From the NCBI RefSeq assembly GCF_023238445.1, contig NZ_CP096658.1, positions 3,410,001 to 3,474,000 on the forward strand: a stretch of DNA of 64,000 bases, read 5' to 3'. The position numbers were made by a program, and so were the translations under genes. The number at the start of each line of letters is the position of its first letter. Position 1 is the first letter of the stretch. The stretch comes from Halorussus gelatinilyticus. Its GTDB lineage: Archaea > Halobacteriota > Halobacteria > Halobacteriales > Haladaptataceae. Of the stretch, positions 37,376 to 57,066 are shown in pieces. The notes under the pieces are model-generated. The model ran no database searches. It worked only from the letters and a program-made list of their open reading frames with translations, and had not been told where the DNA came from.

Positions 37376-37718
37376 TGAGACGGGAGTACGACGACGGGCG
37401 GGAAAACGGTTTGCTTTCTCTGAGAGGACACGCGGATAATCGCCACGCTCGTCGCGAACATCTATAGCGGTCTTTAGGAAACATTCTGTTGTGGTAGAGA
37501 AATAAGTACATTTCTCGGGCGATAGTGCAGGTACGGTCACGGCGCTGTGCGGTCTCGGTACTCCATCGTGCGGTCGCAGTTTGCTCGGTCCCGGTAGAAG
37601 CTGACGTCACCGAACGATTCGCTCCGTCCGTTGCGGGTCGAAAAATCAGCGGTAGCCGGGTCGTCGGAGGCGAAGAATCGAGTTCCGCACCGAAAATCAG
37701 ACTGCGAGGGCGTTCGCG
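37376..37718. other. aglB-DUF368 intergenic region
   Basis: No supported gene lies in this 343-base stretch. A perfect 7-bp inverted repeat GAGAAAT-AAGTAC-ATTTCTC sits at 37497-37516. The last 30 bases before the DUF368 gene include AT-rich AAAACGGTTT (37403-37412) that could be its promoter. The distance suggests DUF368 is transcribed separately from aglB. Confidence 0.5.
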
Positions 37719-40700: not shown

Positions 40701-40898
40701 GAGGTGATACCACGCGTCGTTCCCGTCGAAGAGGACTTCGCCGTTCTGGATGAACTTGTCGTACGACTGGAGTCGCACCCACAGCATGAACGAGAGCGCT
40801 GCGGCGAGCACGGGGACGTGATACCAGTCCTCGAACGAGTCGAGGACCGACTCTACCGAATCGGAGGAGTCCTCGACCTGCTCAGTCTGCTGGCTCAT
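37719..40898 (-). CDS. aglB: oligosaccharyltransferase AglB
   Basis: The 1059-residue, STT3-type enzyme has about thirteen membrane spans in its first half, an acidic metal motif in the first external loop (FDGNDAWYH), the catalytic WWDYG motif (residues 590-594), and a DWKMASVYSN segment corresponding to the DK motif. It transfers dolichol-linked glycans to Asn in NxS/T. Its C-terminal 120 residues are atypical: a Ser/Thr/Asn-rich stalk with about ten sequons, then a hydrophobic end (AGLVGAWAGALVVAG). A TATA-like GCTTATGC lies 29 bases upstream. It is the core of the glycosylation island. Confidence 0.97.
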   Translation of the reverse strand: MSQQTEQVEDSSDSVESVLDSFEDWYHVPVLAAALSFMLWVRLQSYDKFIQNGEVLFDGNDAWYHLRQVQYTVNHWPSTMPYDPWTYFPFGTSVGQFGTLYDQLVATAALIVGLGDPSHQTVATTLLVAPAVFGTLVAIPTYFVGKRLGGRPGGLFGVIVLALFPGTFLRRGLVGFADHNIAEPLFQTFALLAMMVALTVAEREKPVYELLADRDFEALRKPLGYSVLAGIATAFYLWTWPPGVLLVGIFGVFFGLKLTADYARGVSPDHLAFVGAVSMGVTGLLLLVPLGTFDFSPTKFSPLQPLLAFAVSVGCIFMAWLAREFEARDLSTALYPATVGGIVVATVGVVYVALPSLYSLVSKNLIRIIGFSTGAKARTIGEAQPFLSRTQPQFGIEWYDLIIREYGLMLFTAVVAAVWMLWRAYRSDDQRAEQLLVLVWAAFITAAAFTQVRFNYYLAVSVAVLNAYLIGRVFSWASLPSFENVGDINGTQVLAMLFVVLLVVPVLVAPASLGTARYPDTQTAMESGTGASPGDITKWKGSLDWLENSTPAVGDYGNANNADELDYYGTFEQNKSDYSYPEGSYGVMSWWDYGHWITVEGERIPNANPFQEGATTAAKYLLAPNESRANEVIKTLGAPNEETRYVMVDWKMASVYSNAGGKFFAPPAFKPNVTRSDYYQPVYRQSQRGGFQTAFNLRSQKYYESQMVRLYRYHGSRVEPQPIVVDWRARQYQTPNGQVATFKTTESGPNATLVRRFRTMKQAEAFVANDSTSQIGGIAKFPSEPVKALNHYRVVHQSDQSGTSNARWAQRLRAEMQLLLQGNAIRNPNAMFQTSPSWVKTFERVPGATVTGTGPANTTVTASVRLSPVGKNSSFAYRQQAKTGPDGQFTMTLPYSTTGYSNWGPEQGYTNVSVRATGPYQFYTPRNFEGGNLTYHNATAQITEAQVIGESNQTTTVELTKESVSIQQNRNNSTAGGNETAPNGTSGDETPPANETAGNQTAANGTSGNSTAGNGTSNDSSNASQLTPDEALPEREETTPVRAGLVGAWAGALVVAGRD

Positions 40899-41090: not shown

Positions 41091-42557
41091 TCACGATAGC
41101 ATCATGTTTCGGAGGTCCCGCGCGACCGCGACCGCGTCGATGCGGATGCGTTCGCTGAGCGTGAACAGGACCGCGAAGTACGTCGTCGCACCGACGCCGA
41201 GCAGGACCCCGAGTCTGACCGCGCCGCTCGCGCCCCCGAATTGGAGTTTCAGCCCGTAGACGACGCCGGTCATGACCAGCGTGGCCGCGACTTGCCGTCC
41301 CACGTCGCCGAGCGCCGACGGCGGAACCGGCTCTTCCAGCATGAAGAACATCGCGCCAACGCTCGCGCCGAAGGCGACGACGGTCGCCCACGCGGTACCC
41401 CACGAGCCGTACCAGACCGTGAGCGGGACGACCAGCGCACTATAGACGACGATGAGCAACAGTCCGCTCACGGCGTAGAGCTTCGGCTTCCCGGTGCCGA
41501 GGAAGAACTTCTCCAGCCCCTCCCGGTAGCCGTTGAGCAGGTTCGCCGCCGCGAGGACCGGGACGAGCGCGTTCGCCAGTCCGACGACGCCGACGACCGG
41601 GAGGACCGTACTGCCGGCGCTCTGGCCGTAGAGGGTCAACAGCAGGGCATTGCCGACGACCGCGCCGCCGCCGAGTATCGGGACGGCGAACACGCCGGCG
41701 TAGGTGAACAGCACCCCGAGGAGTCGTCCGACTTCCTCGTCGTCGCCCGCCTCCGTGAGCGCGGAGAACTGCGGAAACGCGACCTGCGCCAGCGCCGAGG
41801 AGAACAGCATCGACGCCTCCGTGAGCGTGAAGACGTTCTTGTAGACGCCGGTGACGCCCGTGCCGACGAACTGCCCGAGTAGGAGGTAGTCGGCCTGTTT
41901 GAACAGTTGACTGGAGACGCTCTTGACGTAGGCGTACTTCGAGTAATCGACGAACTCGCGGAACAGTCCGCGGGAGGGGCGAGCGGGAACGACGCGCGCG
42001 AAGCCGACGTACGAGACGAGGAAGGTGAGGAACTGTCCGACGACCAGCCCCCAGATGAGGCCCTTCACGCCGTAGCCATCGAGGACCAGCACGGTCTGAA
42101 TCGGCACGATGAGCGCGTACCGACCGTTCTCTATCGCGCCGACGAGGGCGACGCGCTGTTTGCCTTCGAGGAACGACCCCGAGAGTCGGAAGAGACCCCA
42201 CGAGAGGACCCCGAGTGGCACGAAGAACGCCGCCTCGACGTTCAGGATGGAGTTGATGAACCCGCGGAGTGGGACGACGACGACCGCGACCGCTACGACG
42301 CCAGCGAGGAGGATGAGCACGCCGCTGGTGAAGTGGCGGGCCTCGTCGCTCCCCTCGCTGACGCGCTTGACGACGACCGAGTAGAGACCGAAACTGGAGA
42401 CGTTGGCGGCTATCATCTGGAGACTCAGGAAGATAGCGTACACGCCGATGCCGTCGAACCCGAGTTCCCGTGTGAAGAAGAAGGTCCCGAGGAACGCCGC
42501 GAGCGTCCCGACGACGTTCGTCACGAACCGCTTGGAAACTTCCGCTCCGACCTTCAT
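41091..42557 (-). CDS. MOP-superfamily flippase (Wzx-like)
   Basis: The 488-residue protein has about 12-14 membrane spans, starts VSKRFVTNVVGTLAAFLGTFFFTRELG, and contains YVKSVSSQLFKQADYLLLGQFVG. This is the polysaccharide-flippase pattern shared with AglR-type proteins. It should move the dolichol-linked oligosaccharide to the outer face. It lies between the phosphatase-superfamily gene and aglB on the same strand, 46 bases after the former, suggesting co-transcription. Confidence 0.9.
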   Translation of the reverse strand: MKVGAEVSKRFVTNVVGTLAAFLGTFFFTRELGFDGIGVYAIFLSLQMIAANVSSFGLYSVVVKRVSEGSDEARHFTSGVLILLAGVVAVAVVVVPLRGFINSILNVEAAFFVPLGVLSWGLFRLSGSFLEGKQRVALVGAIENGRYALIVPIQTVLVLDGYGVKGLIWGLVVGQFLTFLVSYVGFARVVPARPSRGLFREFVDYSKYAYVKSVSSQLFKQADYLLLGQFVGTGVTGVYKNVFTLTEASMLFSSALAQVAFPQFSALTEAGDDEEVGRLLGVLFTYAGVFAVPILGGGAVVGNALLLTLYGQSAGSTVLPVVGVVGLANALVPVLAAANLLNGYREGLEKFFLGTGKPKLYAVSGLLLIVVYSALVVPLTVWYGSWGTAWATVVAFGASVGAMFFMLEEPVPPSALGDVGRQVAATLVMTGVVYGLKLQFGGASGAVRLGVLLGVGATTYFAVLFTLSERIRIDAVAVARDLRNMMLS

Positions 42558-42603: not shown

Positions 42604-44163
42604 TCACTCCAGATACCCCAGTTCCCGGAGTCTGTCTTTGACTTCGCCTTCCTTCTCCTCGTCGCCCGACACGCCGCCGCCGGTCACGGCGTCCCTGCCC
42701 ACGAAGTCGTAGGTCGCGGCCTCGCGCTCGGCGAGGTCGGTCCCCTCGGCGAACACGTCCAGAATCTCACCGGTCATCGACGCAGGCAGGTCGTAGCCCA
42801 GTGCGTGGAGGACGGTCGGGGCGATGTCGGTGATGTGTGCGCCCTCGACGCTGCCAGTTCGGAACGACGGGCCGCGCGCAAAGAAGATGCCTTCTCGGGC
42901 GTGGCCGCTGGTATCGACCTCGAAGGTCGGCGCGTCCACGTCGAACCGCGAGGAGGCGTGGACTTCGGGCGTCTCGATTATCATGGCGAGGTCCGGGGTG
43001 TGCGGGCCGCCGCGGGCGAGTCGCCGGAAGCGGACGTCCAACCCTTCGGACTCGGCCGCCGTGCGAAGCGCGGACTCGGCGCGGTCGCAGATGCGCTCGA
43101 TTTCGGTCTCGTCGTCGGCGAGCGCGTAGACGGTCGTCGTCTTCTGGCCAACGTCGGCGACCGCTTCGGTGCGGTCCCAGTCGATGCGACCCATGCTCAG
43201 GGCGTTGTCGAGGCCGAGGTCGTCGCCGGTCGGCACGTCGGTCAGCGCGCTCTCGGGAATCACCTTCCGCGCGAGCGTGAGCAGGCCGACCTGGCCGAGA
43301 GCGTCGCTGGCGAGGTCGCGGGCCGTGCCCAGCGCGGCCTTCTTCGCGTCGCCCGAATCGGTGAGCGCGGCCAGTCCGGCCCGCTCCAACACGTAGTTGG
43401 GCGCGAACTGTCTGCGGACCTTCTCGAACCCGTGGTCGCTCATCACCACGAGGTCCTCGTTTTCGTGGGCGTCGAGGAACTCGCCGAGGCGCTCGTCCAC
43501 GCGCTGGTAGACCTCGAACAGGGGGTTGTCCTCGCTGGCCGGCGGCGTACTTTCCGGTCCCCAGAAGTGGTGGGCCACGCGGTCGGTCGCCCGAATCAGG
43601 CCCACCGCGAGGTCCGGCGACTCCTTCCGGACGAAGTGTTCGAAGGCCTCGAATCGCTTGTCCACGAGGTCGAGGCTCTGTTCGACGTACTCGCGCGAAT
43701 CGGTCGGCGCGTCGTTGCGCAGTTTGTAGTCGTCCACGAGGTCGGTGAGTTCGTCCCATCGCTCGGGCGGGTGGGCGTACTCCTCCTTGTACTCCGGGGC
43801 GGCCGCGATTATCGTCCCGTCGATGGCCTGCCACGGGTACGAACCGGGGATGTTGAACACGACCGCCGACCCGCCCTGGTCGTCCACGGCGTCCCACATC
43901 TTGCCGGGGACGAACTCGTCGTGGCTCAGGTCGTTCTCGCGGGTCTCTCGGTTGAAGTGGGTGAACCCGTACATGTCGAGGTCGGTCGGGTCGCGGCCGG
44001 TGGCGAACGCGGGCCACGCCGGCACCGTGATTTCGGGGACCGTACTCTCCAACTCGCCGGAGACGCTCTCGTCGAGGAGGCGTCGGAAGTTGGGGAGGCG
44101 GCCGGCTTCGACCCAGGGCTCGATGACCGAGAGGGTCGCGCCGTCGAGTCCGAGGAGTATCAT
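42604..44163 (-). CDS. alkaline-phosphatase-superfamily phosphodiesterase (type I PDE/NPP-like) 1
   Basis: The 519-residue enzyme has the metal motif MILLGLDGATLSVIEP, the nucleophile region EITVPAWPAFATGRDP (candidate Thr), NIPGSYPW, ATDRVAHHFW, and VMSDHGFEKV. The active site looks complete. It ends LRELGYLE. It is probably cytoplasmic because no signal peptide is seen. A TATA-like CATTTTTGG (44187-44196, minus strand) lies about 29 bases upstream. Substrate unknown; a nucleotide-sugar, lipid-linked or glycan phosphate is plausible given the neighbours. Confidence 0.85.
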   Translation of the reverse strand: MILLGLDGATLSVIEPWVEAGRLPNFRRLLDESVSGELESTVPEITVPAWPAFATGRDPTDLDMYGFTHFNRETRENDLSHDEFVPGKMWDAVDDQGGSAVVFNIPGSYPWQAIDGTIIAAAPEYKEEYAHPPERWDELTDLVDDYKLRNDAPTDSREYVEQSLDLVDKRFEAFEHFVRKESPDLAVGLIRATDRVAHHFWGPESTPPASEDNPLFEVYQRVDERLGEFLDAHENEDLVVMSDHGFEKVRRQFAPNYVLERAGLAALTDSGDAKKAALGTARDLASDALGQVGLLTLARKVIPESALTDVPTGDDLGLDNALSMGRIDWDRTEAVADVGQKTTTVYALADDETEIERICDRAESALRTAAESEGLDVRFRRLARGGPHTPDLAMIIETPEVHASSRFDVDAPTFEVDTSGHAREGIFFARGPSFRTGSVEGAHITDIAPTVLHALGYDLPASMTGEILDVFAEGTDLAEREAATYDFVGRDAVTGGGVSGDEEKEGEVKDRLRELGYLE

Positions 44164-44186
44164 GTGCGCCGAGAAGCGACCGACCG

Positions 44187-44196
44187 CCAAAAATGG
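44187..44196 (-). promoter_or_regulatory. TATA-like box of the 44163 gene
   Basis: CATTTTTGG on the minus strand is about 29 bases before the ATG at 44163, indicating a leaderless transcript. Confidence 0.45.
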
Positions 44197-44211
44197 TTTG
44201 ATAGCCCGGAG

Positions 44212-45822
44212 TCACTCCAGATATCCGAGGTCCGACAGTCGCTCCGCCACGTCCTCGTCCTCGGTCGATTCCTGCGCTCCGGCGTCGTAGTCGGGGTAGG
44301 AGGTCGGTTCCGGCGCGTCCACGACCGGCAGGACCTCGCCGTCCATCTCCTCGTCGGGGGCCACGCCGAGCGTCGCCAACACCGTCGGAGCCACGTCGAA
44401 GAGGTGCGCGCCGGCGAGGTCCGCGTCGGCGTCGATGCCCTCGCCCGCGCCCGCGACGACGCCGTGGCGCTTGTGGTTCCACGGTTCGGGGTCGCCGAAG
44501 CGCTCGCCGACGAGCGCCGACAGCGCGTGTTCGAAGTCGGCCGGAATCGCCAGCACGTCCACCGCTTCGTCGGCGTAGGGACCGTGGATGTACTCCTCTC
44601 GGGGGACGACCTCCTCGAAGACCGGGCGGCCCTCGGGCGTCGTGACGTTCGAGAGCAGCGAGACGACTTCCTCGCGGACGCGCTCGTAGTCGTCTTCCGG
44701 GACCACGCCGTCGGGGTCCCGGCCCGCGACGTTGAGTCGCACGCCCAACTCGGAGGGCGACCGGAGGTAGGCCCGCGACTCGGCGAAGTCCACGGCGTCG
44801 CTCGCAGCGAACACCGCGCCGACCGGGACGTAGCGCCCGACGACCGCCGCGAGACCCAACCGTTCGAGAATCGCCTTGCCGCGCTGGTAAGTCAGGCCGA
44901 ACTCCGCCGCTACCCCGGCGAGTCTCCGGAGCAGTTCGGCGTCGCCGTCCTGCCCGCCGTCGTCGCTTTCGGTCAGTCGCTCGTCTTTGATCTGGAACCA
45001 CGAGGGAACGCCTTGGCCCTCGGTCGTGGTCTCGACCACGCCCGCTTCGCGGAGGAACTGGTTGACCCGGACCTCGTAGCCGTCGTACTCGCCCATCCCG
45101 TGGTCGCTGGCGACGACGACGGTGTCGGGGTCGCAGTCGTCCAGAATCGCGCCGACCTGCTCGTCGACGCGGCGATAGACCTGCCGGACCTTCTCGTCGT
45201 CGCCGGGGAAGTCGTGGAAGACGGCGTCGGTCTTCTGGAACTGGACGAAGCCGAAGTCGGGGTCGAAGCGCGACGCGAGGTAGCGGAACGCCTCGCCGCG
45301 CATCCGGGTGAGTTCGAGGTAGTCGGCGAACTTCTCCTCGGCGTTCGCGCGCTCGTCGGTCTCCCGGCGGGCGTAGACGCGGTAGTCGCCGATTTCGTCC
45401 CGGATATCGTCGAGGACGCCCTCGGGGTGGCAGGCCGGGTCCTCGGAGGCGAGATACCCCGGCACGACGGCGCCGTCGATGTCGGGCGGCGGACTCGTGA
45501 CCGGCGCGTTGACGACGACGCTGGTCAGACCCTCCTCGTCGAGATACTCCCAGAGAGTCCGCCTGCGCACGTCGGTCGCGTTCACGATGTCCCAGTCGTA
45601 GCCGTCGAACCGCAGGAAGTCGAAGACGCCGTGCTTGCCGGGGTTGGTGCCGGTGTACAGCGAGGGCCACGCGCTGGCGGTCCACGGCGGAATCTGGGAC
45701 TCCAGTCGCTCGCTGGCTCCCTCCGCGAAGAGAGATTCGAGGTGCGGTAACTCGTCGTCCTCGAACATCGGTCGGAGAACGGGGAGACAGGCGGCGTCGA
45801 GTCCGACCAGCAGTGTCTTCAT
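44212..45822 (-). CDS. alkaline-phosphatase-superfamily phosphodiesterase (NPP-like) 2
   Basis: The 536-residue paralogue of the neighbouring gene starts MKTLLVGLDAACLPVL. It has the nucleophile region PPWTASAWPSLYTGTNPGKHG, FQKTDAVFHDF, and VVASDHGMGEYDGYEV, and ends ERLSDLGYLE. Metal ligands appear present. No signal peptide. It is preceded by GTTTTAAG (45847-45854) as TATA. The function is inferred only from family and location in the glycosylation island. Confidence 0.85.
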   Translation of the reverse strand: MKTLLVGLDAACLPVLRPMFEDDELPHLESLFAEGASERLESQIPPWTASAWPSLYTGTNPGKHGVFDFLRFDGYDWDIVNATDVRRRTLWEYLDEEGLTSVVVNAPVTSPPPDIDGAVVPGYLASEDPACHPEGVLDDIRDEIGDYRVYARRETDERANAEEKFADYLELTRMRGEAFRYLASRFDPDFGFVQFQKTDAVFHDFPGDDEKVRQVYRRVDEQVGAILDDCDPDTVVVASDHGMGEYDGYEVRVNQFLREAGVVETTTEGQGVPSWFQIKDERLTESDDGGQDGDAELLRRLAGVAAEFGLTYQRGKAILERLGLAAVVGRYVPVGAVFAASDAVDFAESRAYLRSPSELGVRLNVAGRDPDGVVPEDDYERVREEVVSLLSNVTTPEGRPVFEEVVPREEYIHGPYADEAVDVLAIPADFEHALSALVGERFGDPEPWNHKRHGVVAGAGEGIDADADLAGAHLFDVAPTVLATLGVAPDEEMDGEVLPVVDAPEPTSYPDYDAGAQESTEDEDVAERLSDLGYLE

Positions 45823-45846
45823 ACTCCGACGAATCGGACGAGGCGG

Positions 45847-45854
45847 CTTAAAAC
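45847..45854 (-). promoter_or_regulatory. TATA box of the 45822 gene
   Basis: GTTTTAAG on the minus strand is centred about 28 bases before the ATG. Nearly the same box precedes the gene starting at 52874 (GTTTTAAGC at 52896-52904). Confidence 0.55.
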
Positions 45855-45869
45855 TGCTTTTCCGCGACG

Positions 45870-47333
45870 CTATTCGAGGTAGCCCAGTTCCCGGAGGTTC
45901 CGCTCGACGCCCGCGCTGTACTCGGCGTCGGTCGCGCTCTCGGCCCCGTCGAACGACTCCCCGAGCGTCGCCGCGAGTCGCTCGCGGAGCGGTGCCACGA
46001 CCGCCTCGTCGGGGTCCGAGACGACCGCCTCGCCCGGCAGTTCGTAGAGGACTTCCTCGCCGTCCGACCGTAACTCGAAGCGATACTCGTCGGTCCGAAT
46101 CGACTTGCGGCCGACCTCGAACTCCCGGAGCGTCTCCTCGGACACCTCGCTGGCGGCCTCGGCGTCGCGCTCGTCGGAGGGCGCTTTCGCGGCGAAGACG
46201 GCGTCGCGTCGCGCGTCGCCGAGCAGCGACGACCCGTCCGTCTCGGGGGCGTCGAGACCGCACAGGTCACACAGCGTGGCGAACAGGTCGATGTGGGAGG
46301 CGAGGTCGGTGCGGCGCTCGCCCGCCGGAACGCCGGGACCCGAGACCACCAGCGGGACGCGAGTCACCTCGTCGTAGAGGAAGTCGCCGTGGTAGAAGCC
46401 GCCGTGTTCGCCGAACAGTTCGCCGTGGTCGGACGTGAGGACCAGCAGAGTGTCGTCGGCCAGCCCCTGTCGGTCGAGCCAGTCGAGGAACGCCCCGAGT
46501 CGGTCGTCCAGATACCGGAGGCTCGCGGCGTACCACTCGCGTAGCACGTCGAGTTCGGCGTCCGAGACGTACTCGTCGTCCTCGAAGTACCGCAACGCGA
46601 TGGACGTCGCGTCGGCACCGTCCGCGGCGTCGAACAGCCGTTCGTCACGAATTTCGGGGTCGTCGAACTCACAGGGCGCGTCCAGCAACTCCTCGGCGAG
46701 ACCGAACCGCGGCCGGGAGAGTTCCGGCGTCGCCGCCCGCTTGTACGGTCGCGGCGGGTCGTAGGGGCTGTGGACGGTCGTCAGGTTCGCCATCGCGAAG
46801 AACGGTTCCGGGGCGTCGGCGAGCCACTCGCGGAGTCGGTCGAACTTGATTTCGCTGTAGTAGTCGTTGCCCGCTCCCGCGAGGCGCAGGAAGTCGCGCC
46901 GAATCAACGGGTCGGTCACGAGCTGCCGGAGGTAGTCGAGCGAGGGGCGCTTGGCCACCTCCTCGTACACCTCGTAATACTCGTCGAAGCCGCGATCGAG
47001 ACCCGTCGCGGACCCCATCTTCGCGGGACCGGGGATGCCGTAGGTCCGGTAGCCTCGGTCGGAGAACCACTCCGCGAGCAAGGGAACCGACTCGGGCATC
47101 GTCGGCCACGCGCCGTCGAACCCGGTGTCGGAGGGGTATCGCCCGGAGAACATCGCGCCGTGGGACGGCGGGGTCCACGGGCCGACGGCGAAGGCGTTCT
47201 CGAAGACCGTCCCCCGCCGAGCCACGCGGTCGAAGGCCGTCGTCTCGACGGGGAACGCTCGGTCGTAACACGAGAGCGCGTCGGCCCGGAGCGTGTCGAA
47301 GACGAGGAGGATGACGTTCGAGCGGTCGGTCAT
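45870..47333 (-). CDS. sulfatase-fold protein with Thr nucleophile 1
   Basis: The 487-residue protein starts SNVILLVFDTLRADALSCYD (metal Asp residues) and carries the nucleophile loop VGPWTPPSHGAMFSGRYPS. Sulfatases have Cys or Ser modified to formylglycine in CxPSR; here Thr is at that place. It also has SPYDPPRPYK and TSDHGELFGEHGGFYHGDFLYDEVTRVPLVV and ends NLRELGYLE. A Thr nucleophile is typical of phosphoryl-transferring relatives, so it is more likely a phosphohydrolase or phosphotransferase than a sulfatase. GTTTAA (47360-47365) is a leaderless-type TATA. Confidence 0.83.
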   Translation of the reverse strand: MTDRSNVILLVFDTLRADALSCYDRAFPVETTAFDRVARRGTVFENAFAVGPWTPPSHGAMFSGRYPSDTGFDGAWPTMPESVPLLAEWFSDRGYRTYGIPGPAKMGSATGLDRGFDEYYEVYEEVAKRPSLDYLRQLVTDPLIRRDFLRLAGAGNDYYSEIKFDRLREWLADAPEPFFAMANLTTVHSPYDPPRPYKRAATPELSRPRFGLAEELLDAPCEFDDPEIRDERLFDAADGADATSIALRYFEDDEYVSDAELDVLREWYAASLRYLDDRLGAFLDWLDRQGLADDTLLVLTSDHGELFGEHGGFYHGDFLYDEVTRVPLVVSGPGVPAGERRTDLASHIDLFATLCDLCGLDAPETDGSSLLGDARRDAVFAAKAPSDERDAEAASEVSEETLREFEVGRKSIRTDEYRFELRSDGEEVLYELPGEAVVSDPDEAVVAPLRERLAATLGESFDGAESATDAEYSAGVERNLRELGYLE

Positions 47334-47359
47334 ACTGCGACACTGGGCGTTCGGTCGTG

Positions 47360-47365
47360 TTAAAC
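47360..47365 (-). promoter_or_regulatory. TATA-like box of the 47333 gene
   Basis: GTTTAA on the minus strand is centred about 29 bases before the ATG at 47333. The divergent glycosyltransferase promoter is only 90 bases away. Confidence 0.5.
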
Positions 47366-47451
47366 GTTCGATTCTGTCGGCGGTGTCCGGGCGACGGAGA
47401 CGACGGAGGCGAGCCCGTCGCCCGCCTCGACACGCCGACGATTGAGCGTCC

Positions 47452-47458
47452 TTTTTAT
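47452..47458 (+). promoter_or_regulatory. TATA box of the GT4 gene at 47486
   Basis: TTTTTAT is about 30 bases upstream of the ATG at 47486, indicating a leaderless transcript. Confidence 0.55.
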
Positions 47459-47485
47459 CACTCGCCCCGGAAACTTCGGCCGAAC

Positions 47486-48520
47486 ATGGACCCGGACACC
47501 GCCCGCGTCGCCATGCTCCACCAAGACCCGCATCCGGCACACCGCGGGTTCGCGGAGGCGGTCGGCGCGGACCTCGTTGACTACCATCGGCTCTCGCTCG
47601 GTCCGTTGGAGGGCACCGTCGCCGAGGACGGCCTGAACGGGCTGGCGTACCCGAACTACGACGCGTACATCGTGGAAGGCTCGCGACCGCTCTACGCCGC
47701 GCTCGCCCGGCGGTTCACCCGCGGCGGGAAGCTCATCTACCTCTGTGCCGACCACGGGCTCTACCAGCTCGGCAACGCCGACTTCGAGGGGAGTTCGACC
47801 GTGAAGTCGCTGGTCGGGAAGTTCGGCACGCCGCTGGTCCGTGCGGTCGGGCGGCGCGGCATCGACGGGGTAATCGCGGTCTCGGAGTTCGCCGCGGAGT
47901 TCACGCGCCCGGTCGTCGGTCCCGACACACCCATCGAAGTCGCCCACCCGTTCGTCCAGCAAGCAGAGTACGACGCGCTCGGAGGAGTCGAACCCGACCT
48001 CGACTCGAACGTCGCGGTCACGGTCGCTCGCCCGTGGAAGTACAAGGGCGTCGATATGCTGGTCGAGGCGTGGCCCCGCGTGCGCGAACAGTTCCCCGAC
48101 GCCCAACTGCACGTGGTCGGGAAGGGTCATCCGGACGACTACGGGACCACCCCCGGCGTCCGCGTTCGCGGGTACGTCGAGGACCTCGCCGACGCGTTCG
48201 CCCCCGCCTCGCTGTTCGTCCAACCGTCCCGGATGGACACCTTCCCGGTCAGCACGCTGGAGGCGATGCGCGCCGGACTCCCGCCGCTCGTGACTCGGAC
48301 CGCCGGAACTCGCTCGGAAGCCCGCGAAATCGACCCGCTGTTCGTCGCGGAGCCGAACCCGGAGGCGCTGGCGCGCGGCGTCCGGGAGTACTTCGTCCGG
48401 GACACCGCCGAGCGACGACGGCTCTCGGCGGCCGCTCGGGAGCGCGGGTCGCGCTTCGACCCCGAGTCGCGGAAGGCCGCGTTCGGGCGAGCGTTCCGCG
48501 ACGTTCTCAAAGAACTTTAG
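47486..48520 (+). CDS. GT4-type glycosyltransferase
   Basis: The 344-residue GT-B enzyme has a nucleotide-sugar-binding C-terminal half: VAVTVARPWKYKGVDMLVEAWPRV, LHVVGKGHPDDYG, RVRGYVEDLADAFAPASLFVQPSRMDTFPVSTLEAMRAGLPP (the family E-x7-E region). It is cytosolic, with no membrane span. It is followed after 24 bases by a phosphatase-superfamily gene on the same strand. It probably adds a sugar to the lipid-linked glycan. Confidence 0.9.
   Translation: MDPDTARVAMLHQDPHPAHRGFAEAVGADLVDYHRLSLGPLEGTVAEDGLNGLAYPNYDAYIVEGSRPLYAALARRFTRGGKLIYLCADHGLYQLGNADFEGSSTVKSLVGKFGTPLVRAVGRRGIDGVIAVSEFAAEFTRPVVGPDTPIEVAHPFVQQAEYDALGGVEPDLDSNVAVTVARPWKYKGVDMLVEAWPRVREQFPDAQLHVVGKGHPDDYGTTPGVRVRGYVEDLADAFAPASLFVQPSRMDTFPVSTLEAMRAGLPPLVTRTAGTRSEAREIDPLFVAEPNPEALARGVREYFVRDTAERRRLSAAARERGSRFDPESRKAAFGRAFRDVLKEL
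48514..48520 (+). promoter_or_regulatory. TATA-like box of the 48545 gene
   Basis: ACTTTAG is centred 28 bases before the ATG at 48545. It overlaps the end of the preceding GT4 gene, so the phosphatase gene may be transcribed independently as well as by read-through. Confidence 0.45.
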
Positions 48521-48544
48521 CTTCGGGAGCGCGAGGGGTCAGGC

Positions 48545-50089
48545 ATGACCGTCTACGTCGTCGGATTGGACGGGGCCGACTGGTCCCTGCTCCGCCCGTG
48601 GGCCGAGGAAGGCCACCTCCCGGCGTTCGCCCGGATTCTGGACGAGGGCGCGTCGGGCGACCTCGAAAGCACCCTCCCGCCCGTCACGTTCCCGGCGTGG
48701 AAGTGCTACTCGACCGGCAAGACGCCCGGCAAGTTGGGCGTCTACGAGTGGTTCGCCTACGACCGCGACGCGAACGAGATTTCGGCCAACGACGCCAGCG
48801 ACTTCCGGTCGCGCGAGTACTGGGACGTGCTGGCCGACCGCGGAGTGCGCGCCGGGGTGGTGAACATGCCGACGACCCACCCGCCCGAGAGCGACGATGG
48901 CGTCTTCGTCGTCGCCGGAAGCCCCGCGACCGAGCGCGAGGCGTTCACCAGCCCTCGGTCGCTCAAGTCCGACCTCCTCGACGCGATTCCCGACTATCGG
49001 GTCAAGCCCGACCTCGTGCTGGACGAGGCCACGCCCGACGAACTGGTTTCGGAGGCCCGCGACCTCTTCGAGCAGCGGTTCGAGGCCGCGACGTGGCTGG
49101 CCGACGAGAAGGACTGCGAGTTAGTCCACACCACGCTGTTCGCCACCGACACGCTCCAGCACAGGCTGTGGGACCGCCCCGAGAAGCTCCGGGCGGCCTA
49201 CGAGCGCGTGGACGAGTTACTCGCCGACCTGCTCGACCGCGAGGACGCCGAGGCCGTCTTCCTGATGAGCGACCACGGCTTCACCGAGATAGACGAGATA
49301 TTCCTCGTCAACCAGTGGCTCTTGGAACGTGGGGACCTCGCCGTCGAGGAGTCCGAGACCCGCGACCTGCTCGCGTCGGTCGGCCTGACCGAGGAGCGAC
49401 TGAAGCGACTCGTCGGGAAGCTCGGCCTCGTGAACCTCGCCCAGTCGCTCATCCCCGAGTCGGCCCAGCGGTTCTTCCCGAGCGAGAGCGGTCGGGTGGC
49501 GATTCAGGACGCCGACATCGACTGGTCGCGGACGAAGGCGGTCTCACTCGGCCGGGGTCCCCTCTACGTCAATCGCCGCGCGTTCCCCGACGAGGAGGCC
49601 GCCCAGTCCTACGCCGACGAACTCGCGGCCGACCTCGAAGCTCTCGACACGCCCGCTGGCGACCCTGTGGCCGCCGCGGTCCACGACCCTGCCGACGTGT
49701 ACACCGGCGAGCGAGCGCGGGGTCCGGACCTCCTCGTGGAGTACGCGACCGGCGTGGACGCTCCAGAGGCCATCGGCGGCGGCGTGTTCGGCGAGACGAC
49801 CGAGTGGCTGGCGACCCACCGCCGCACGGGGGTCTTCGCGGCGTGGGGCGAGAACGTCGCGGCCGGGAACAACGACCTCGACCTGTACGACCTCGCACCC
49901 ACGATTCTCCACTATCTCGGCGCGCCGGTCCCCGAGGACGCGGACGGCGAGGTCCGCCGCGACGTGTTGACCGGCGAACCGGCGGACCGCGAGGTCGAGG
50001 ACGGGCCGCCGACCGCGACCGACGCCGCCGGTCGCGGCGCTGGCGACGAGGTGGAGGAGACGCTTCGGGAACTGGGGTACATGGAGTGA
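48545..50089 (+). CDS. alkaline-phosphatase-superfamily phosphodiesterase (NPP-like) 3
   Basis: The 514-residue protein starts MTVYVVGLDGADWSLLRPWAEEGHLPAF. It has the nucleophile region PPVTFPAWKCYSTGKTPGKLG, FATDTLQHRLWDRPEK, and FLMSDHGFTEIDE. It ends LRELGYME, so it is the third close relative of the two NPP-like proteins at 42.6-45.8 kb but on the opposite strand. The next phosphatase-superfamily gene begins 10 bases later, so the two are co-transcribed. The paralogues may act on different glycan intermediates. Confidence 0.85.
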   Translation: MTVYVVGLDGADWSLLRPWAEEGHLPAFARILDEGASGDLESTLPPVTFPAWKCYSTGKTPGKLGVYEWFAYDRDANEISANDASDFRSREYWDVLADRGVRAGVVNMPTTHPPESDDGVFVVAGSPATEREAFTSPRSLKSDLLDAIPDYRVKPDLVLDEATPDELVSEARDLFEQRFEAATWLADEKDCELVHTTLFATDTLQHRLWDRPEKLRAAYERVDELLADLLDREDAEAVFLMSDHGFTEIDEIFLVNQWLLERGDLAVEESETRDLLASVGLTEERLKRLVGKLGLVNLAQSLIPESAQRFFPSESGRVAIQDADIDWSRTKAVSLGRGPLYVNRRAFPDEEAAQSYADELAADLEALDTPAGDPVAAAVHDPADVYTGERARGPDLLVEYATGVDAPEAIGGGVFGETTEWLATHRRTGVFAAWGENVAAGNNDLDLYDLAPTILHYLGAPVPEDADGEVRRDVLTGEPADREVEDGPPTATDAAGRGAGDEVEETLRELGYME

Positions 50090-50099
50090 TTCCGAGCAG

Positions 50100-51449
50100 A
50101 TGAATCCGCTGACGCGCTTTCCGCGACTCAACAACGCGTGGATGGACCTGAAACACCGCCTGTCTCACTGGCAGAAGCGGCGCGAGCGCGCCGCCGAGAC
50201 GGACTTCGACGCGAGCGTGGGCGACCCCCGGAACGTCCTCGTGGTCGTCGTGGACTGCCTCCGGGCGGACCACGTCGGTCGGTTCGGCCACGACCGCGAG
50301 ACGACGCCGACCCTCGATTCGTTCGACGCGGCGGCGTTCTCGAACGCCAAGGCCGCGAGTACGTGGACCTTCCCCTCCGTCCCCTCGCTCCTCTCCGGGC
50401 GCTACCCTCACGAACACGGCGGCCGCTTCGAGACCGACCCGCGGAACCTCTCGGCCGCGGAGTTTCCCCAGCGACCGCGCGCCGACGTGCCGACGCTTCC
50501 CGACCTGTTGGAGACGGCGGGCTACGACACCGGGATGATAACCGCGATTCCGATGGCCGAGAAGGCGGTCGGCGAGCGCTTCCAGCACGTCTCGGTTCGC
50601 TACACCGACGCCAGCGAACGCGTCGAAACCGCCCGCGATTGGATTTCGGGGCGGGACCGGTGGTTCTGTTACCTCCACCTCGGGGACCCCCACGCACCAC
50701 TCGACGTGCCCGACGACCACCGCGAGACGTTCGGGGTGCCCGAACTGGACGACCTCGAAGACTGGCGGTTCCGCGAGACCACCGACGGCGACGGCTTCGA
50801 GACGTATCGTGACGCCAGACTCCGGGCCTACGACGCCGCGGTTCGCGGTGCCGACGACGCGCTCGCGCCCCTGCTGGCGGACGTGGGCGACGACACCGTG
50901 GTCGTCGTCTGCGGCGACCACGGCGAGGCGTTCTGGGAGCATCCCGACCTCGAACGCCGACTCAACGACGACCCGAGGGGCTACTACGCGACCGACCACG
51001 GCCACAGCGTCCTCGAAGAGGTCGCGCGCGTCCCGCTCTGGGTTCGCGCGCCCGGCGTCGAGCGGATGGAGTCCGACCGCGCCGTCTCGCTCGTGGACGT
51101 GGCACCGAGCGTCCTTCGAGCGCTCGACGCCGACGTTCCGGATGGAGTCAGCGGCCGGGACCTCCGAGACGCACCCGACGACCGAACGATTCTCTGCGAG
51201 GAGACGGCCTACGGCTACAATCAGCGGGCGGTTTGGCAAGACGGCCGGAAGTTGGTCTCGGTGCCCGAAACCGGAACCCGGCTCGCCTTCGACCTCGACG
51301 GCTACCTCGAAGGCGACCCGCTCGGCGCGGTGCCGGACCACCTTGACGCGGCGCTGGCGTCGTTCGGCGGCGGCGTCGAGGGCGGCGAGCGGATGGACGT
51401 GGACGGCGCGACCCAGGACCGACTCGAAGAACTCGGCTACCTCGAATGA
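50100..51449 (+). CDS. sulfatase-fold protein with Thr nucleophile 2
   Basis: The 449-residue protein has a basic N-terminal extension (LKHRLSHWQKRRERAAE), the metal motif VLVVVVDCLRADHVGRFGHD, the nucleophile loop AASTWTFPSVPSLLSGRYPHEHGG, YLHLGDPHAPLDVP, CGDHGEAFWEH and DHGHSVLEEVARVPLWVRAPG. The aligned nucleophile is Thr, not Cys or Ser. It ends RLEELGYLE. No signal peptide. It is the second gene of a pair with the upstream NPP-like enzyme. Substrate unknown. Confidence 0.82.
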   Translation: MNPLTRFPRLNNAWMDLKHRLSHWQKRRERAAETDFDASVGDPRNVLVVVVDCLRADHVGRFGHDRETTPTLDSFDAAAFSNAKAASTWTFPSVPSLLSGRYPHEHGGRFETDPRNLSAAEFPQRPRADVPTLPDLLETAGYDTGMITAIPMAEKAVGERFQHVSVRYTDASERVETARDWISGRDRWFCYLHLGDPHAPLDVPDDHRETFGVPELDDLEDWRFRETTDGDGFETYRDARLRAYDAAVRGADDALAPLLADVGDDTVVVVCGDHGEAFWEHPDLERRLNDDPRGYYATDHGHSVLEEVARVPLWVRAPGVERMESDRAVSLVDVAPSVLRALDADVPDGVSGRDLRDAPDDRTILCEETAYGYNQRAVWQDGRKLVSVPETGTRLAFDLDGYLEGDPLGAVPDHLDAALASFGGGVEGGERMDVDGATQDRLEELGYLE

Positions 51450-51491
51450 AGACGCATCGGCTTCGAATACGAAGATGACTCTGGGGCGTCG

Positions 51492-52874
51492 CTATTCCAG
51501 ATACCCCAAGTCTTCGAGGTGGTCCTCGACCATCTCCTCGTCCTCGGCGATACCTCGGGAACTGCCTTCGCGCAGTCGCTTCATGCGTTCTTGATGGTCG
51601 TCCAGCGCGTCAGCGACCGCCTCGTACTCGGGCGGCGCGTCCTCGGCGCGGTCGTCCTCGGGGCGTTCGTCGGGCGTCTCGCGCACGTCGAAGCAGAACT
51701 CGCCGTCGTCGGCGTGGCGAAGCACCTTCCAGCCGTCGGCTCGCCGGGCACAACAACGGGCGTAGTCTATCTGGCGACCGACGTCGGCGAACGCGTACTC
51801 GCGGGACTCGGCCTCGCCGTCGGCGACTTCGAGCGCCGACTCGCCCTCCCACCCGTCGAAGCCGTCGAGCGAGAGCGCGTCGCAGACGGTCGGTGCCGCG
51901 TCGATGAGTCGAATCTGGCCGTCCACGGTGGCGGCTTCCCTGTCGGGGTGGTGGACGAGGAAGGGGACGCGAAGCACGCCCTCCCAGAACTCCGGCGGGT
52001 GGCCGGCGTGGCCGTGTTCGCCAACGAGTTCGCCGTGGTCGGCGGTGAACACCACCACCGTCTCGTCCAAGAGGTCGCGGTTCTCCAGCGCGGTCAGCAC
52101 GCCGTCGAACTGGTCGTCCACGTAGGCGCACTCGGCGTCGTAGAGTTGCCGGATTAGCTCCCACTCGCGGTCGGTCATCTCGTCGGGGTGGTGGGTCCCC
52201 TTCCGGGAGAGTCCGCGACACTCCGAGAGCGAGAGCGGTTCGTCGAGGAACTGCCGCTGGTACTCGTCGGGGGCCTCGTAGGGGTGGTGGGCGTCCATGT
52301 AGTGGAGCCACGTGAACCAGTCGTCGGAGTCGTCGTCCGACCGGTCGTCTATCCAGTCGAACGCGCGGCGGTTCAGCGACTCGGCGCGCTCGTACTCGCT
52401 CTCCTGTCCGGTCGCGCTGGCGAAGAGGGCGTCCACCCGATTGTAGACCGACTCGATGGTCCGGAACAGCGTCCCGTCCTTGTCGAGGTTCGACTGGACG
52501 AACTGCTTGAGTTTCCCGGCCTCGGCCGCGCCGCTGGCGTCGTACATCGTCTCGAAGCCGCGGTCGTAGTGGTACGACCCGCTGGCGAAGTGGTTGTCGG
52601 TGTAGCCCGCGGTGGCGTAGCCGGCGTCGCGGAGTCGCTCGGCGAGCGTCCGGATGCCGTCGTCGGTGCCGGGTTCGGGGATGCCCAGTCCCTCGATGCT
52701 GGCGAAGTACCGACTGGCGTGAATCGTCGGGAACGAGGCGGGCGTCGAGGGACCGTTGGCGATACACTCGGTGAATTCGACCGCTCCGTCGGCGAACGAC
52801 CGGGTCGCGGGCATCACCTCCGGGTTCACCCGGTCGGCCCGGAGCGAATCCACGGTCACGAGGAGGACGTTCAT
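51492..52874 (-). CDS. sulfatase-fold protein with Thr nucleophile 3
   Basis: The 460-residue protein starts MNVLLVTVDSLRADRVNPEV. Its nucleophile loop is ANGPSTPASFPTIHASRYF, which aligns without gaps to GPWTPPSHGAMFSGRYP of the 45870-47333 protein and again has Thr. It has WLHYMDAHHPYEAPDEY, FTADHGELVGEHGHAGHPPEFWEGVLRVPFLVH, and ends HLEDLGYLE. Promoter GTTTTAAGC at 52896-52904. It faces the 50100 gene convergently. Confidence 0.82.
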   Translation of the reverse strand: MNVLLVTVDSLRADRVNPEVMPATRSFADGAVEFTECIANGPSTPASFPTIHASRYFASIEGLGIPEPGTDDGIRTLAERLRDAGYATAGYTDNHFASGSYHYDRGFETMYDASGAAEAGKLKQFVQSNLDKDGTLFRTIESVYNRVDALFASATGQESEYERAESLNRRAFDWIDDRSDDDSDDWFTWLHYMDAHHPYEAPDEYQRQFLDEPLSLSECRGLSRKGTHHPDEMTDREWELIRQLYDAECAYVDDQFDGVLTALENRDLLDETVVVFTADHGELVGEHGHAGHPPEFWEGVLRVPFLVHHPDREAATVDGQIRLIDAAPTVCDALSLDGFDGWEGESALEVADGEAESREYAFADVGRQIDYARCCARRADGWKVLRHADDGEFCFDVRETPDERPEDDRAEDAPPEYEAVADALDDHQERMKRLREGSSRGIAEDEEMVEDHLEDLGYLE

Positions 52875-52905: not shown

Positions 52906-53967
52906 CTACTCGTAGCGAGTCAGCACGCGGTCGGCCACGTCGTCCCACGTCGGGAGCGCGGCGGCGGGCGCGTCGCGTCCGACTGCGTTCCGGACCGCCT
53001 CGGCGACCGTCTCGGGCGCGATCGCCGCCACGCTCTCGCAGTCCGGCCTGTCGGCCCAATCGACCAGCGCGCCCGCCTCCCGGACGACGCAGGGCGTCCC
53101 GGCCGCCAGCGCCTCGGCGACCGTCATGCCGTACGCCTCGAACGTCGAGAGCGTGAGATACGCCGAGGCCCCGGCGTACAGCCCCGGAAGGCGCTCGTCG
53201 GCGACGTAGCCAAGAAACTCGACGCGCGACGCGACGCCCTCCCTGCGTGCGACCGCCTCCAGTTCCTCCCGGTAGTCGCCCGACCCCGCGACTAGCAGGT
53301 CGTACTCCGGCAGCTCCGACAGGGCGCGAATCGCGTGCTGGACGCCCTTGTACGCTTCCAGTCGCCCGACGCAGAGCAGGTAGGGCCGGTCGCGCTCCTC
53401 GGGGGTCGCGTCGGCGAATCGCTCGGCGTTCAGCCCGTTGGGTATCACGGTCGCCTCGACGCCGAAGTCCGAGCGCAGTCGGTCGCGCTCCCAGTCGCTG
53501 ACCGCGATTACCTCGTCGGCGCGGTCGAGCGCCCAACCGCCGAGCGGCCGATAGAGCGAGAGGAGTCTGTCGCGGAAGTCGCTCGCGCTCGCGCCGTGGT
53601 AGTGGGGCGTCACGACGAATCGCGCGTCTTCAGGCCCGGCGCTCCCCCCGACGGCGACCCCCAGCGCCGCGAAGAACGCGGGCAGCGAGTGGTAGTTGTG
53701 AGCGTGGACTACGTCGGGGTCGGCCCGCCGGACCGCGGGCGCGACGCCGGGCGCGACGTGGAACGCGCCGCCGGGCGCGAACCCCCGGAACCGCCGCACT
53801 CGCACCCCCTCGCGGGTCTCGCGCCGCGGGAGGTCCGCCTCGGCGTCGGCCGTGAACACCGTCACGTCGTGGCCGAGGGCGACGAGTCGGCGGCTTATCT
53901 CGGCGACGTGCGTCTCGACGCCGCCGGTGTGTGGCGCGTAGCGCGGCGCGACCTGTAGAATCTTCAT
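52906..53967 (-). CDS. GT4 family glycosyltransferase
   Basis: The 353-residue GT-B enzyme has the acceptor-side N-terminus MKILQVAPRYAPHTGGVETHVAEISRRL, ADPDVVHAHNYHSLPA, and VIAVSDWERDRL. The donor-side C-terminal half has YLLCVGRLEAYKGVQHAIRAL, LLVAGSGDYREELEAVA and LSTFEAYGMTVAEALAAGTPCVV. It begins five bases after the upstream GT2 gene, so the two are one operon. It probably adds a later sugar of the glycan. Confidence 0.92.
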   Translation of the reverse strand: MKILQVAPRYAPHTGGVETHVAEISRRLVALGHDVTVFTADAEADLPRRETREGVRVRRFRGFAPGGAFHVAPGVAPAVRRADPDVVHAHNYHSLPAFFAALGVAVGGSAGPEDARFVVTPHYHGASASDFRDRLLSLYRPLGGWALDRADEVIAVSDWERDRLRSDFGVEATVIPNGLNAERFADATPEERDRPYLLCVGRLEAYKGVQHAIRALSELPEYDLLVAGSGDYREELEAVARREGVASRVEFLGYVADERLPGLYAGASAYLTLSTFEAYGMTVAEALAAGTPCVVREAGALVDWADRPDCESVAAIAPETVAEAVRNAVGRDAPAAALPTWDDVADRVLTRYE

Positions 53968-53972
53968 CGGGG

Positions 53973-55115
53973 TCAGTCGAAGGCTTCCCGAAGCTCTTCG
54001 TCAACTTCCCACGTGCCGTCGCCCTTCCCGCGGAGGAGTTCGACCGCGGCGTGGAGCAGGGAGACCTGCGAGTCGAAGACGGCGTAGACGGCTTGGAGCG
54101 GCCCGAGGAGGTCCTTCTGTCCGAGCCAGACGAATCCGGCGAGCGCGGCCGGAACCGCGAGTCCGGCGAGACCCGCCACGGAGACTCCGGCCGCCGTGAC
54201 CGCCAGCACGTCGAGCGCGACTAGCCACGGCGAGACCACCATGAACCACCAATTGAACGGGAGGACCAGTTTGCCGTAGTTGCCGTACTTGCCGAGCGCG
54301 TCGCGGTGCTGAGCGAGCAGGCGAATCAGGCCCATCCCTCGGCGGTCCTTCTGGAGACGGCGCTTGCCGAAGTCCGAGTGGGACGCCTCCTTGTACCGGA
54401 CCGCGGGGTCGAATATCACGCGGTCGCCGCCCCGACGAATCTTGAGCGCCAACTCGGTGTCGTCGGCCAGCGAGTTGGGGTCGATGGGGACGATGGCGTC
54501 GTTCTCGAACGCCGAGAACGGGCCGTGGAAGATGAGCGTCGAGTCGAGGTGCGATTCGAGCGTCTGGATGTGGGCCTGCACGCCGCGGTAGCCGGCCTCG
54601 ACCTCGCTCCCGCCCAAGACTTCGGCGTTCTGGCCCGTGACCGCGGCCACGTCGGGGTCCGCGAGGTTGGCGGCCGCCTCCCGGAGCGCGTCGTCGGCGA
54701 CGTACGAGTCGCAGTCGGTCTTGACGACCATCTCGTTCTCCGCGGCGGCGTAGGCGTCGTTCAGCGCGGGTGCGAGTCCCCGGCGCTCCTGCTCGCGGAT
54801 GAGGTTCAGGTCGGGCGCGTCCCGGTCGGCGAAGTACTCCTCTATCAGTTCCGGCGTCTCGTCGTCGCTCGAATCCACGACGACCAACTCAACTTTCTCC
54901 ATCGGATAGTCCAGCGACAGCACGTCGTCGAGTTTCTTCTCGATGATTCCCGACTCGTTGTACGTCGGCAGGACGATGCTGACGGTCGGTTCGTCGTCGC
55001 GCTTCTCGGCCGGCGACCCGCTGGGCGAGACGGCCGCGTAGAGGGCGAGATACGCGAGATACGGCAGCGCCGTGGCGGCGACGAGCGCCCCGGCGGCGGC
55101 CACGAAGGAGTTCAT
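53973..55115 (-). CDS. membrane-bound GT2 glycosyltransferase
   Basis: The 380-residue protein has an N-terminal hydrophobic segment (FVAAAGALVAATALPYLAYLAL), then the GT-A domain SIVLPTYNESGIIEKKLDDVL, VVKTDCDSYV (metal-binding DxD-like), DDTELALKIRRGG and RLQKDRRGMGL. Three C-terminal spans follow (from about residue 285), as in processive or dolichol-linked GT2 enzymes. First gene of a two-gene operon with the GT4. A TATA-like GTTATAG (about 55134-55141, minus strand) precedes it. Confidence 0.9.
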   Translation of the reverse strand: MNSFVAAAGALVAATALPYLAYLALYAAVSPSGSPAEKRDDEPTVSIVLPTYNESGIIEKKLDDVLSLDYPMEKVELVVVDSSDDETPELIEEYFADRDAPDLNLIREQERRGLAPALNDAYAAAENEMVVKTDCDSYVADDALREAAANLADPDVAAVTGQNAEVLGGSEVEAGYRGVQAHIQTLESHLDSTLIFHGPFSAFENDAIVPIDPNSLADDTELALKIRRGGDRVIFDPAVRYKEASHSDFGKRRLQKDRRGMGLIRLLAQHRDALGKYGNYGKLVLPFNWWFMVVSPWLVALDVLAVTAAGVSVAGLAGLAVPAALAGFVWLGQKDLLGPLQAVYAVFDSQVSLLHAAVELLRGKGDGTWEVDEELREAFD

Positions 55116-55253: not shown

Positions 55254-55880
55254 TTAGACCGTGACCGCGCTCTCTTGGGAGAGCGACTGGGGCACGTTCG
55301 CGCGGTAGAGCGTCACTGCGCCGTACTGGGTAGTGAGCTTCAGCTTGACTTCCTCGCCCTCGCCGAGGCCGGTGCCACTTTCGCGGATGGCAGTGGCATC
55401 CATCGTAATCTTGAAGCGGTCGTCCTGTGTGTTGAGAACGGGTTCGGAGCCATCGGGGTCCTTGATGGAGCTGACGTCGAACTCGGTGCCGTTCAGCGTG
55501 TCGGGCGCAGCGGTGTTGTGGACCAGCGTCGTTGCCTCCTCCGGACCGATCCACTCGATGGTGGCCGACGAGAGGTTGATGTCGTCGGACCCGGAGCCGC
55601 GCATGACCGTCAGGTTGATCTTTTCGACTTTCTCGTTGGCCACGTCACCGAACGCGCTGACGACCTGTACGCGGTTCGAGACCTGCGCGCTGGACTCCTG
55701 ACCGGTCTGTTCGGACTTGGTCTGGAGGAAGCCAGCCGTGTTGATGAGCACGCCCGCCGCAATCGCGGCGACCAGCACCATAGCGATGAAGACGATGAGT
55801 GTACCGATACCCACCTGACCGCGGTCGTTGACCGCGCCCTCGATTCTATCTTTTACTGCCGAGAGATAATTCCGTGTCAT
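55254..55880 (-). CDS. archaellin (archaeal flagellin)
   Basis: The 208-residue preprotein has a 21-residue class III signal ending NDRG, then the conserved archaellin helix [20 protein letters not shown] with [13 protein letters not shown]. The prepilin peptidase would cut after the Gly. Mature protein about 187 residues, with sequons NLT, NLS and NGT. A strong ATATATATA box is 55-63 bases upstream, so a leader of about 30 bases is expected. It is alone: no fla/arl accessory genes are in the window. AglB is the probable modifier. Confidence 0.93.
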
Positions 55881-56157: not shown

Positions 56158-57066
56158 ATGGCCGACTGCGAGGAGGTTTGCGTTCTCATCCCGACGCTGA
56201 ACGAAGCTAAGACCATCGGCGAGGTTATCGACGGGTTCACCAGTCGCGGGTACGAGAACGTCCTCGTCATCGACGGCAACTCCTCGGACGGGACGACGGA
56301 CATCGCCAGCGACCACGGGGCGCGCGTCATGTCCCAGTCGGGCACGGGGAAGGGGCAGGCGGTCCGCGAAGCCATCGACCACATCGACGCCGAGTACATC
56401 CTGATGCTCGACGGCGACGGCACCTACCGCCCGGAGGACGCCGAGGCGATGCTCGAACCGATACTCGACGGCGAGTACGAACACGTCATCGGCAACCGCT
56501 TCGCCGACATGGAGGAGGGCGCGATGAGTCGCCTCAACGAGTTCGGCAACGGCCTGTTCAACTGGGTGTTCGAGACCATCCACGGCAAGGACTTCGAGGA
56601 CATCCTGAGCGGCTACCGGGCGTTCACCCGCCAGTCGGTGGAGAACTTCTATCTCGACGCGGACGGCTTCGGCGTCGAGACGGAACTCGCCGTCGAGTGT
56701 GTGAAACACGGCGTGCCGACGACGGTGGTGCCGATTCGCTACGAGGCACGGCCCGACGAATCGGATACCAACCTCCACCCGATTCGGGACGGCGGGGTCA
56801 TCCTCGTGACGCTCTATCAACTGGCGAAGACGAGCAACCCGCTGTTCTACTTCGGGAGCGTCGGCGTGGGGAGTTCCCTGGTGGGGGTGACCATCGCCGC
56901 GTTCGTCGCCTACGAGTGGTTCGTGAAGGTGCCCCGCGAGAGCCACGAGGTGCTGGCGGTGGTCGCCGCGTTCGCCATCCTGTTCGGCGTGCAACTGCTG
57001 ATGTTCGGGGTGCTGTCGGACCTCATCGTGACGCTCCACCGCGAGCAGATGCGACGGTTGGAGTGA
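56158..57066 (+). CDS. aglJ: N-glycosylation initiating glycosyltransferase AglJ
   Basis: The 302-residue GT2 enzyme matches AglJ (TIGR04182) in length and layout: [55 protein letters not shown] (metal-binding DGDG), [16 protein letters not shown], and two C-terminal membrane spans ([39 protein letters not shown]). AglJ adds the first hexose to dolichyl phosphate in Haloferax. It lies 16 kb from aglB with the sugar-processing genes between. Confidence 0.93.

Follow-up and report, generated by a model that had tools for sequence, protein, structure and literature searches.

Six genes of the alkaline phosphatase (AP) superfamily lie within an archaeal N-glycosylation island, and the question raised by this locus is what their products do to the glycan that is built there. 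AP-superfamily enzymes are mainly known as hydrolases, and the role of archaeal members as sugar sulfotransferases was shown only in 2025. The locus was analysed in a window of 64,000 nucleotides (the whole stretch of DNA, C1:3410001-3474000 of a 3.67-Mb Halorussus genome), to which the positions below refer unless otherwise indicated.

Organization of the locus

The island is arranged in the order polyprenyl-phosphate translocase, aglB, flippase, N1, N2, S3, GT4, N4, S5, S6, GT4, GT2, archaellin and aglJ. The AglB oligosaccharyltransferase gene (37719..40898, minus strand) and a Wzx-type flippase gene (41091..42557, minus strand; PF13440, 8.9e-18) are followed by the six AP genes, N1 (42604..44163, minus strand; Thr nucleophile, tail LRELGYLE), N2 (44212..45822, minus strand; tail LSDLGYLE), S3 (45870..47333, minus strand; tail LRELGYLE), N4 (48545..50089, plus strand; tail LRELGYME), S5 (50100..51449, plus strand; Thr90 nucleophile, tail LEELGYLE) and S6 (51492..52874, minus strand; tail LEDLGYLE), with a GT4 glycosyltransferase gene (47486..48520, plus strand; PF13692, 3.5e-25) between S3 and N4. 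On the other side are a GT4 gene (52906..53967, minus strand; PF13439, 2.7e-31), a GT2 gene (53973..55115, minus strand; PF00535, 3.2e-20), an archaellin gene with an approximate start (55254..55850, minus strand; NF006325 flagellin, 7.6e-32; TIGR02537 from residue 199 of the open frame) and the gene of the dolichyl-phosphate glycosyltransferase AglJ (56158..57066, plus strand; TIGR04182, 458.4 bits at a cut-off of 325). An earlier sequence-only reading had given the six genes, on both strands, the same positions and tails and had named the same neighbours, and all of these proved correct. The polyprenyl-phosphate translocase-like gene (36404..37540, minus strand; PF04018, 2.3e-63; NCBIfam polyprenyl-phosphate transporter, 1.2e-55) is added here; it adjoins aglB in relatives too, and its product probably serves dolichol-phosphate recycling.

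By Pfam, N1, N2 and N4 were assigned to PF01663 (E from 1e-35 to 1e-39) and S3, S5 and S6 to PF00884 (E from 1e-34 to 1e-44), in agreement with their earlier description as NPP-like and sulfatase-like proteins. Pairwise identity was 29-35% inside each subfamily and 18-24% across the subfamilies, and three of the five PF00884 matches in the whole genome fall in the cluster. The TATA-like boxes proposed for five of the six genes were clear in two cases (TTTTAA at -29 of S6 and at -31 of N2) and were weaker AT stretches at about -30 in three others; S5, which starts 10 bp past its neighbour, has none.

Catalytic residues, fold and location

The residues D9, T48, D202, H206, D243, H244 and H425 are invariant in the N-branch, so that N1, N2 and N4 carry the full NPP catalytic set (Asp-Thr-Asp-His-Asp-His-His) together with the PF01663 profile. 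The nucleophile and metal ligands invariant in the S-branch are D52, T90, D273, H274 and H300. Thr occupies the position of the Cys or Ser that is converted to formylglycine in type I sulfatases (the Cys being replaced in S3), and the formylglycine motif CxPxR/SxPxR was found in none of S3, S5 and S6.

The AF2 model of S5 (pLDDT 88) gave the uronic acid 2-O-sulfatase BT1596 (5G2T/5G2U) as the best PDB match. S5 is also distantly similar to EptA and LtaS. For the N-branch, phosphonoacetate hydrolase and NPPs were the closest PDB entries; since the N4 model is poor (pLDDT 57.5, ten sequences in the alignment), this fold match is taken as supportive only. Neither a signal peptide nor a transmembrane stretch was found in any of the six proteins (top 19-residue hydropathy 1.67 or less), so they are probably cytoplasmic, where the dolichol-phosphate-linked glycan is built.

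Conservation and exchange of the cassette

A match to AglB at E<=1e-60 was obtained in 94 of the 99 genomes of the order. In Halorussus relatives, the block from flippase to aglJ with all six AP genes is found again, order and strand unchanged, at 71-87% identity over the AP genes plus the first GT4 gene; the cassette of one relative (G097) is without S5, and that of another (G041) is split over contigs. The whole series from flippase through N1, N2, S3, GT4, N4, S5, S6, GT4 and GT2 to AglJ is also kept in Haloferax mucosum, where aglB is present as well, and in Natrinema hispanicum (50-78% identity), and the tails recur in Halorussus species and in both of these. In G097 and G082, one more AP protein, short and ending in an LGYL tail, was seen in or near the S5 slot. 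In the tree, S3, S5 and S6 form separate old lineages (support 100/100, 99/98 and 100/100, respectively), by which a recent tandem duplication as the origin of the S-branch is ruled out.

The sister genome G066 has the closest AglB (78%) and keeps both flanks, with aglB on one side and GT4, GT2, archaellin and aglJ (76-94%) on the other. In its middle (L064 6548-11105), eight genes are replaced by a different GT4, a different GT and a different flippase, together with a single shorter AP protein whose tail is LRNLGYKV. Because the flanks are kept and the inside differs, the middle of the agl locus is regarded as a swappable cassette. Sister species that have it, or a swapped middle between the same flanks, offer a natural experiment on the identity of the surface glycan, a trait of relevance to recognition by viruses and in mating.

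Loss of the cluster near aglB in related genomes would have spoken against a link to N-glycosylation; the cluster is kept there, and the conservation of the whole cassette across three haloarchaeal families ties the enzymes to the N-glycan locus. The cluster is real, conserved and functionally coherent. Outside Halorussus, among the genomes listed, at least 6 LGY tails were counted at 20 kb or less from aglB, against 1.1 expected (Poisson p ~0.001, with contig breaks ignored). That the six are nutrient-scavenging phosphatases or sulfatases, placed near aglB by accident, is suggested by the family names only; against it are this excess of tails, the conservation across three families and the missing signal peptides, and such a role is hardly credible.

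Relation to the sulfotransferases of Halobacterium salinarum

The aglB cluster of Halobacterium salinarum has three AP-superfamily proteins, VNG1056C (Agl30), VNG1057C (Agl31) and VNG1063H (PMC11980604). As published in 2025, Agl30 and Agl31 sulfate the N-linked tetrasaccharide, almost all N-glycan sulfation is lost upon their double deletion, and expression of either one in Hfx. volcanii leads to sulfation of the glycan there; Agl31 is a soluble cytosolic protein, no effect of VNG1063H on N-glycan sulfation was detected, and the catalytic mechanism and the donor of Agl30/Agl31 are not given (PMC11980604). The clustering of AP-superfamily genes with a complete agl locus, which had been put forward as new, is therefore already on record for this species, and the six-gene cluster is a variant of a recently described kind.

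The C-termini of the three proteins were derived by translating the cloning primers printed in PMC11980604, and they read HLEDLGYL (Agl30), LEELGYT (Agl31) and KELGYIE (VNG1063H); no mention of a tail linking them was found in the literature searched. Exact matches to the published Agl30/Agl31 primers were found nowhere in the genome contigs searched. A Halobacterium genome (G064, bacterio-opsin 100% identical) was considered as a stand-in, and its AP proteins, with 28-210 bits against the S-branch profile and no fit to the primers, are relatives only. Its aglB contig ends beside aglB, and three AP genes are on another contig (L082 1125-7396), where tails LGYLS, LGYL and LGYR occur with several glycosyltransferases alongside. 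Two of these proteins seem to have Ser, not Thr, near the nucleophile position.

Because proven sulfotransferases have the same tail, sulfation is favoured over the other readings, for the S-branch at least. An activity as hydrolases for editing or recycling, in which sulfate or phosphate is stripped from nucleotide sugars or lipid-linked intermediates, would suit the AP-superfamily fold and the NPP or sulfatase profiles. The addition of sulfate by Agl30 and Agl31 (PMC11980604), the PF00884 members without the formylglycine motif and the difficulty of accounting for six co-inherited hydrolases beside three glycosyltransferases make it improbable.

Proposed function

The six proteins are proposed, with moderate confidence and largely by analogy, to be cytoplasmic sulfating transferases of the AP superfamily, which would decorate the dolichol-phosphate-linked N-glycan before flipping. 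A Thr activated by metal would first accept the sulfuryl (or phosphoryl) group of a donor and then transfer it to a sugar hydroxyl, in a two-step mechanism that would parallel the use of Thr by phosphoethanolamine transferases. The neighbouring flippase would then turn the decorated glycan outward, and AglB would attach it to archaellin and S-layer protein. With six co-inherited, non-redundant enzymes, an unusually highly sulfated glycan may be expected.

The sequence-only reading had proposed that phosphate-type groups are added, removed or transferred on the lipid-linked glycan. Of this, transfer is still likely; the group is more likely sulfate, as in Agl30 and Agl31, since AP proteins with the same tail in the aglB cluster of Halobacterium salinarum sulfate its N-glycan (PMC11980604). 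The sulfate assignment is weaker for the three PF01663 members than for the PF00884 ones; no proven sulfotransferase in PF01663 was found in the literature searched, and their two-metal set of NPP residues is also compatible with phosphate chemistry. In a rival reading, phosphate, phosphoglycerol or another phosphodiester would be placed on the lipid-linked glycan by at least part of the six, most of all by the PF01663 three, and sulfation may be left to the PF00884 members. The seven NPP catalytic residues of the N-branch, its nearest PDB entries, and the use of Thr by EptA and LtaS (phosphoethanolamine and glycerophosphate, respectively), to which S5 is distantly similar, are consistent with this. 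The proven relatives in an aglB cluster transfer sulfate (PMC11980604), EptA and LtaS differ from the six in being membrane enzymes whose catalytic domains are external, and no haloarchaeal N-glycan with a phosphate-type group was found in the literature searched. Phosphate transfer is considered rather unlikely overall, and it is most plausible for the PF01663 branch.

The C-terminal tail

In the 3.67-Mb genome, LGY[LIMV]E-stop occurs nine times, six of them in the cluster, and the reversed control pattern does not occur; the clustering is therefore beyond chance. The pattern is present in 78 of the 99 genomes of the order (control, 0 to 2 matches each). Two of the nine genomic tails are on unrelated proteins (aIF6-like and ribbon-helix-helix), by which the tail is ruled out as a stand-alone diagnostic. 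About 100 kb downstream, three further PF01663 proteins with the tails LGYL, LGYLE and LGYMD, one of them 61% identical to N2, are encoded (genome positions 3548018-3552786, L020 13018-17786; 3569918-3571567, L021 14918-16567). Among 133 bacterial and archaeal S-type homologs, which were collected by DHGE and LRAD patterns and are thus biased against formylglycine sulfatases, Thr was found in 124, half of which have LGY near the end; the combination of Thr with the LGY tail is therefore old and widespread. As had been foreseen, the tail alone is not new, and being shared by bacterial Thr-type relatives and by unrelated proteins it is suggestive, not diagnostic.

Conservation was compared over five ortholog sets: the final 12 residues equal or surpass the catalytic domain, and the 38 residues before them fall below it; the tail exceeds the domain in four sets, the exception being N4 (0.87 vs 0.88). 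In the AF2 model of S5, residues 425-431 are of low confidence and residues 436-444 form a helix, and the N4 model, though poor, also ends in a helix. These models suggest that the LxxLGYxE tail forms a short helix, joined to the rest of the protein by a variable, acidic linker. Such a tethered helix could plausibly serve in docking, in line with the common role suggested earlier for the C-terminus. Its probable target would be either a partner shared by the enzymes or the core of the enzyme itself. Alternatively, LGY may do no more than stabilise the C-terminal helix as a cap (Leu-x-x-Leu-Gly-Tyr, Schellman type), with no binding partner. The same ending on the aIF6-like and ribbon-helix-helix proteins and on about half of the bacterial Thr-type homologs, and the S5 helix followed by a cap, argue for this; the low-confidence variable linker before the tail, and a conservation above the catalytic domain in four of five sets that a mere cap does not require, argue against. 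The cap is a serious contender, slightly short of an even chance.

Sulfate activation

The canonical PAPS route, in the form of ATP sulfurylase plus APS kinase, was not found in this genome. ATP sulfurylase (Sat, PF01747) is absent from it and was found in 3 of the 99 genomes of the order, a convincing APS kinase (E below 1e-40) is absent from it and was found in 6 of 99, and CysD above the cut-off was found in none of the 99. Weak APS-kinase matches in almost every genome were set aside as short (20-30 bits). The two canonical enzymes are thus missing from nearly all 99 genomes, though N-glycan sulfation is known in the group.

A CysD-like PP-loop protein is encoded in this genome at C1:2553540-2554499 (L099 1498-2469; relatives in L095-L098), with 62.6 bits, as measured on the relative in L098, against the CysD cut-off of 396.6. 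It is highly conserved in haloarchaea (79% identity with the copy in a genome of another family), and its ending, MERLRDLGYM, resembles the AP-superfamily tails. True CysD proteins end in a GYF-type sequence too, so the LGYM ending may be a mere family trait. As a speculation that is regarded as quite doubtful, haloarchaea might bypass the canonical PAPS route in N-glycan sulfation: a CysD-like enzyme that has diverged would activate the sulfate, Thr-nucleophile AP transferases such as the six would pass it to the lipid-linked glycan, and, as the CysD-like protein has a similar ending, one docking helix could bring both kinds of enzyme together. The six-gene cassette would then be a portable module for hyper-sulfation that haloarchaeal families exchange. 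The Thr-for-Cys change, the common LGY tail and the near-absence of canonical sulfate activation provide testable points on mechanism and donor.

Comparison with known systems

In Haloferax volcanii, Agl7 has a part in sulfating a hexose of the low-salt glycan that is linked to dolichol phosphate (PMC3871713), and it is like the present proposal in the sulfation of a dolichol-phosphate-linked sugar and in the gene position in an N-glycosylation cluster; an assignment of Agl7 to the AP superfamily was not found in the literature searched. The Thr-type PF00884 proteins of Planctomycetota, Myxococcota and Acidobacteriota share the Thr nucleophile and the DTLRAD and DHGE motifs with the S-branch and have the LGY tail in about half, and few of them have recognisable glycosyltransferase neighbours. 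Type I sulfatases (S1 family, e.g. BT1596) have fold and metal ligands in common with S3, S5 and S6, which score above the PF00884 cut-off, but the S-branch is without the formylglycine motif and signal peptide. EptA and LtaS resemble the proposed enzymes as Thr-nucleophile AP-superfamily proteins that transfer instead of hydrolysing, whereas they are membrane-anchored and perform phosphate chemistry, and no membrane anchor is seen in the six.

The closest known system is that of Agl30, Agl31 and VNG1063H, in which three AP genes stand against six here, with no PF01663 branch described, and the tails end in L, T or IE against LE here. In common with these three, the six are AP-superfamily proteins (PF01663 or PF00884) in an aglB-anchored cluster with a C-terminal LxxLGY tail (the Halobacterium salinarum ends having been translated from the printed primers), and BT1596 is the closest solved fold for S5 as it is for VNG1056C and VNG1063H (PMC11980604).
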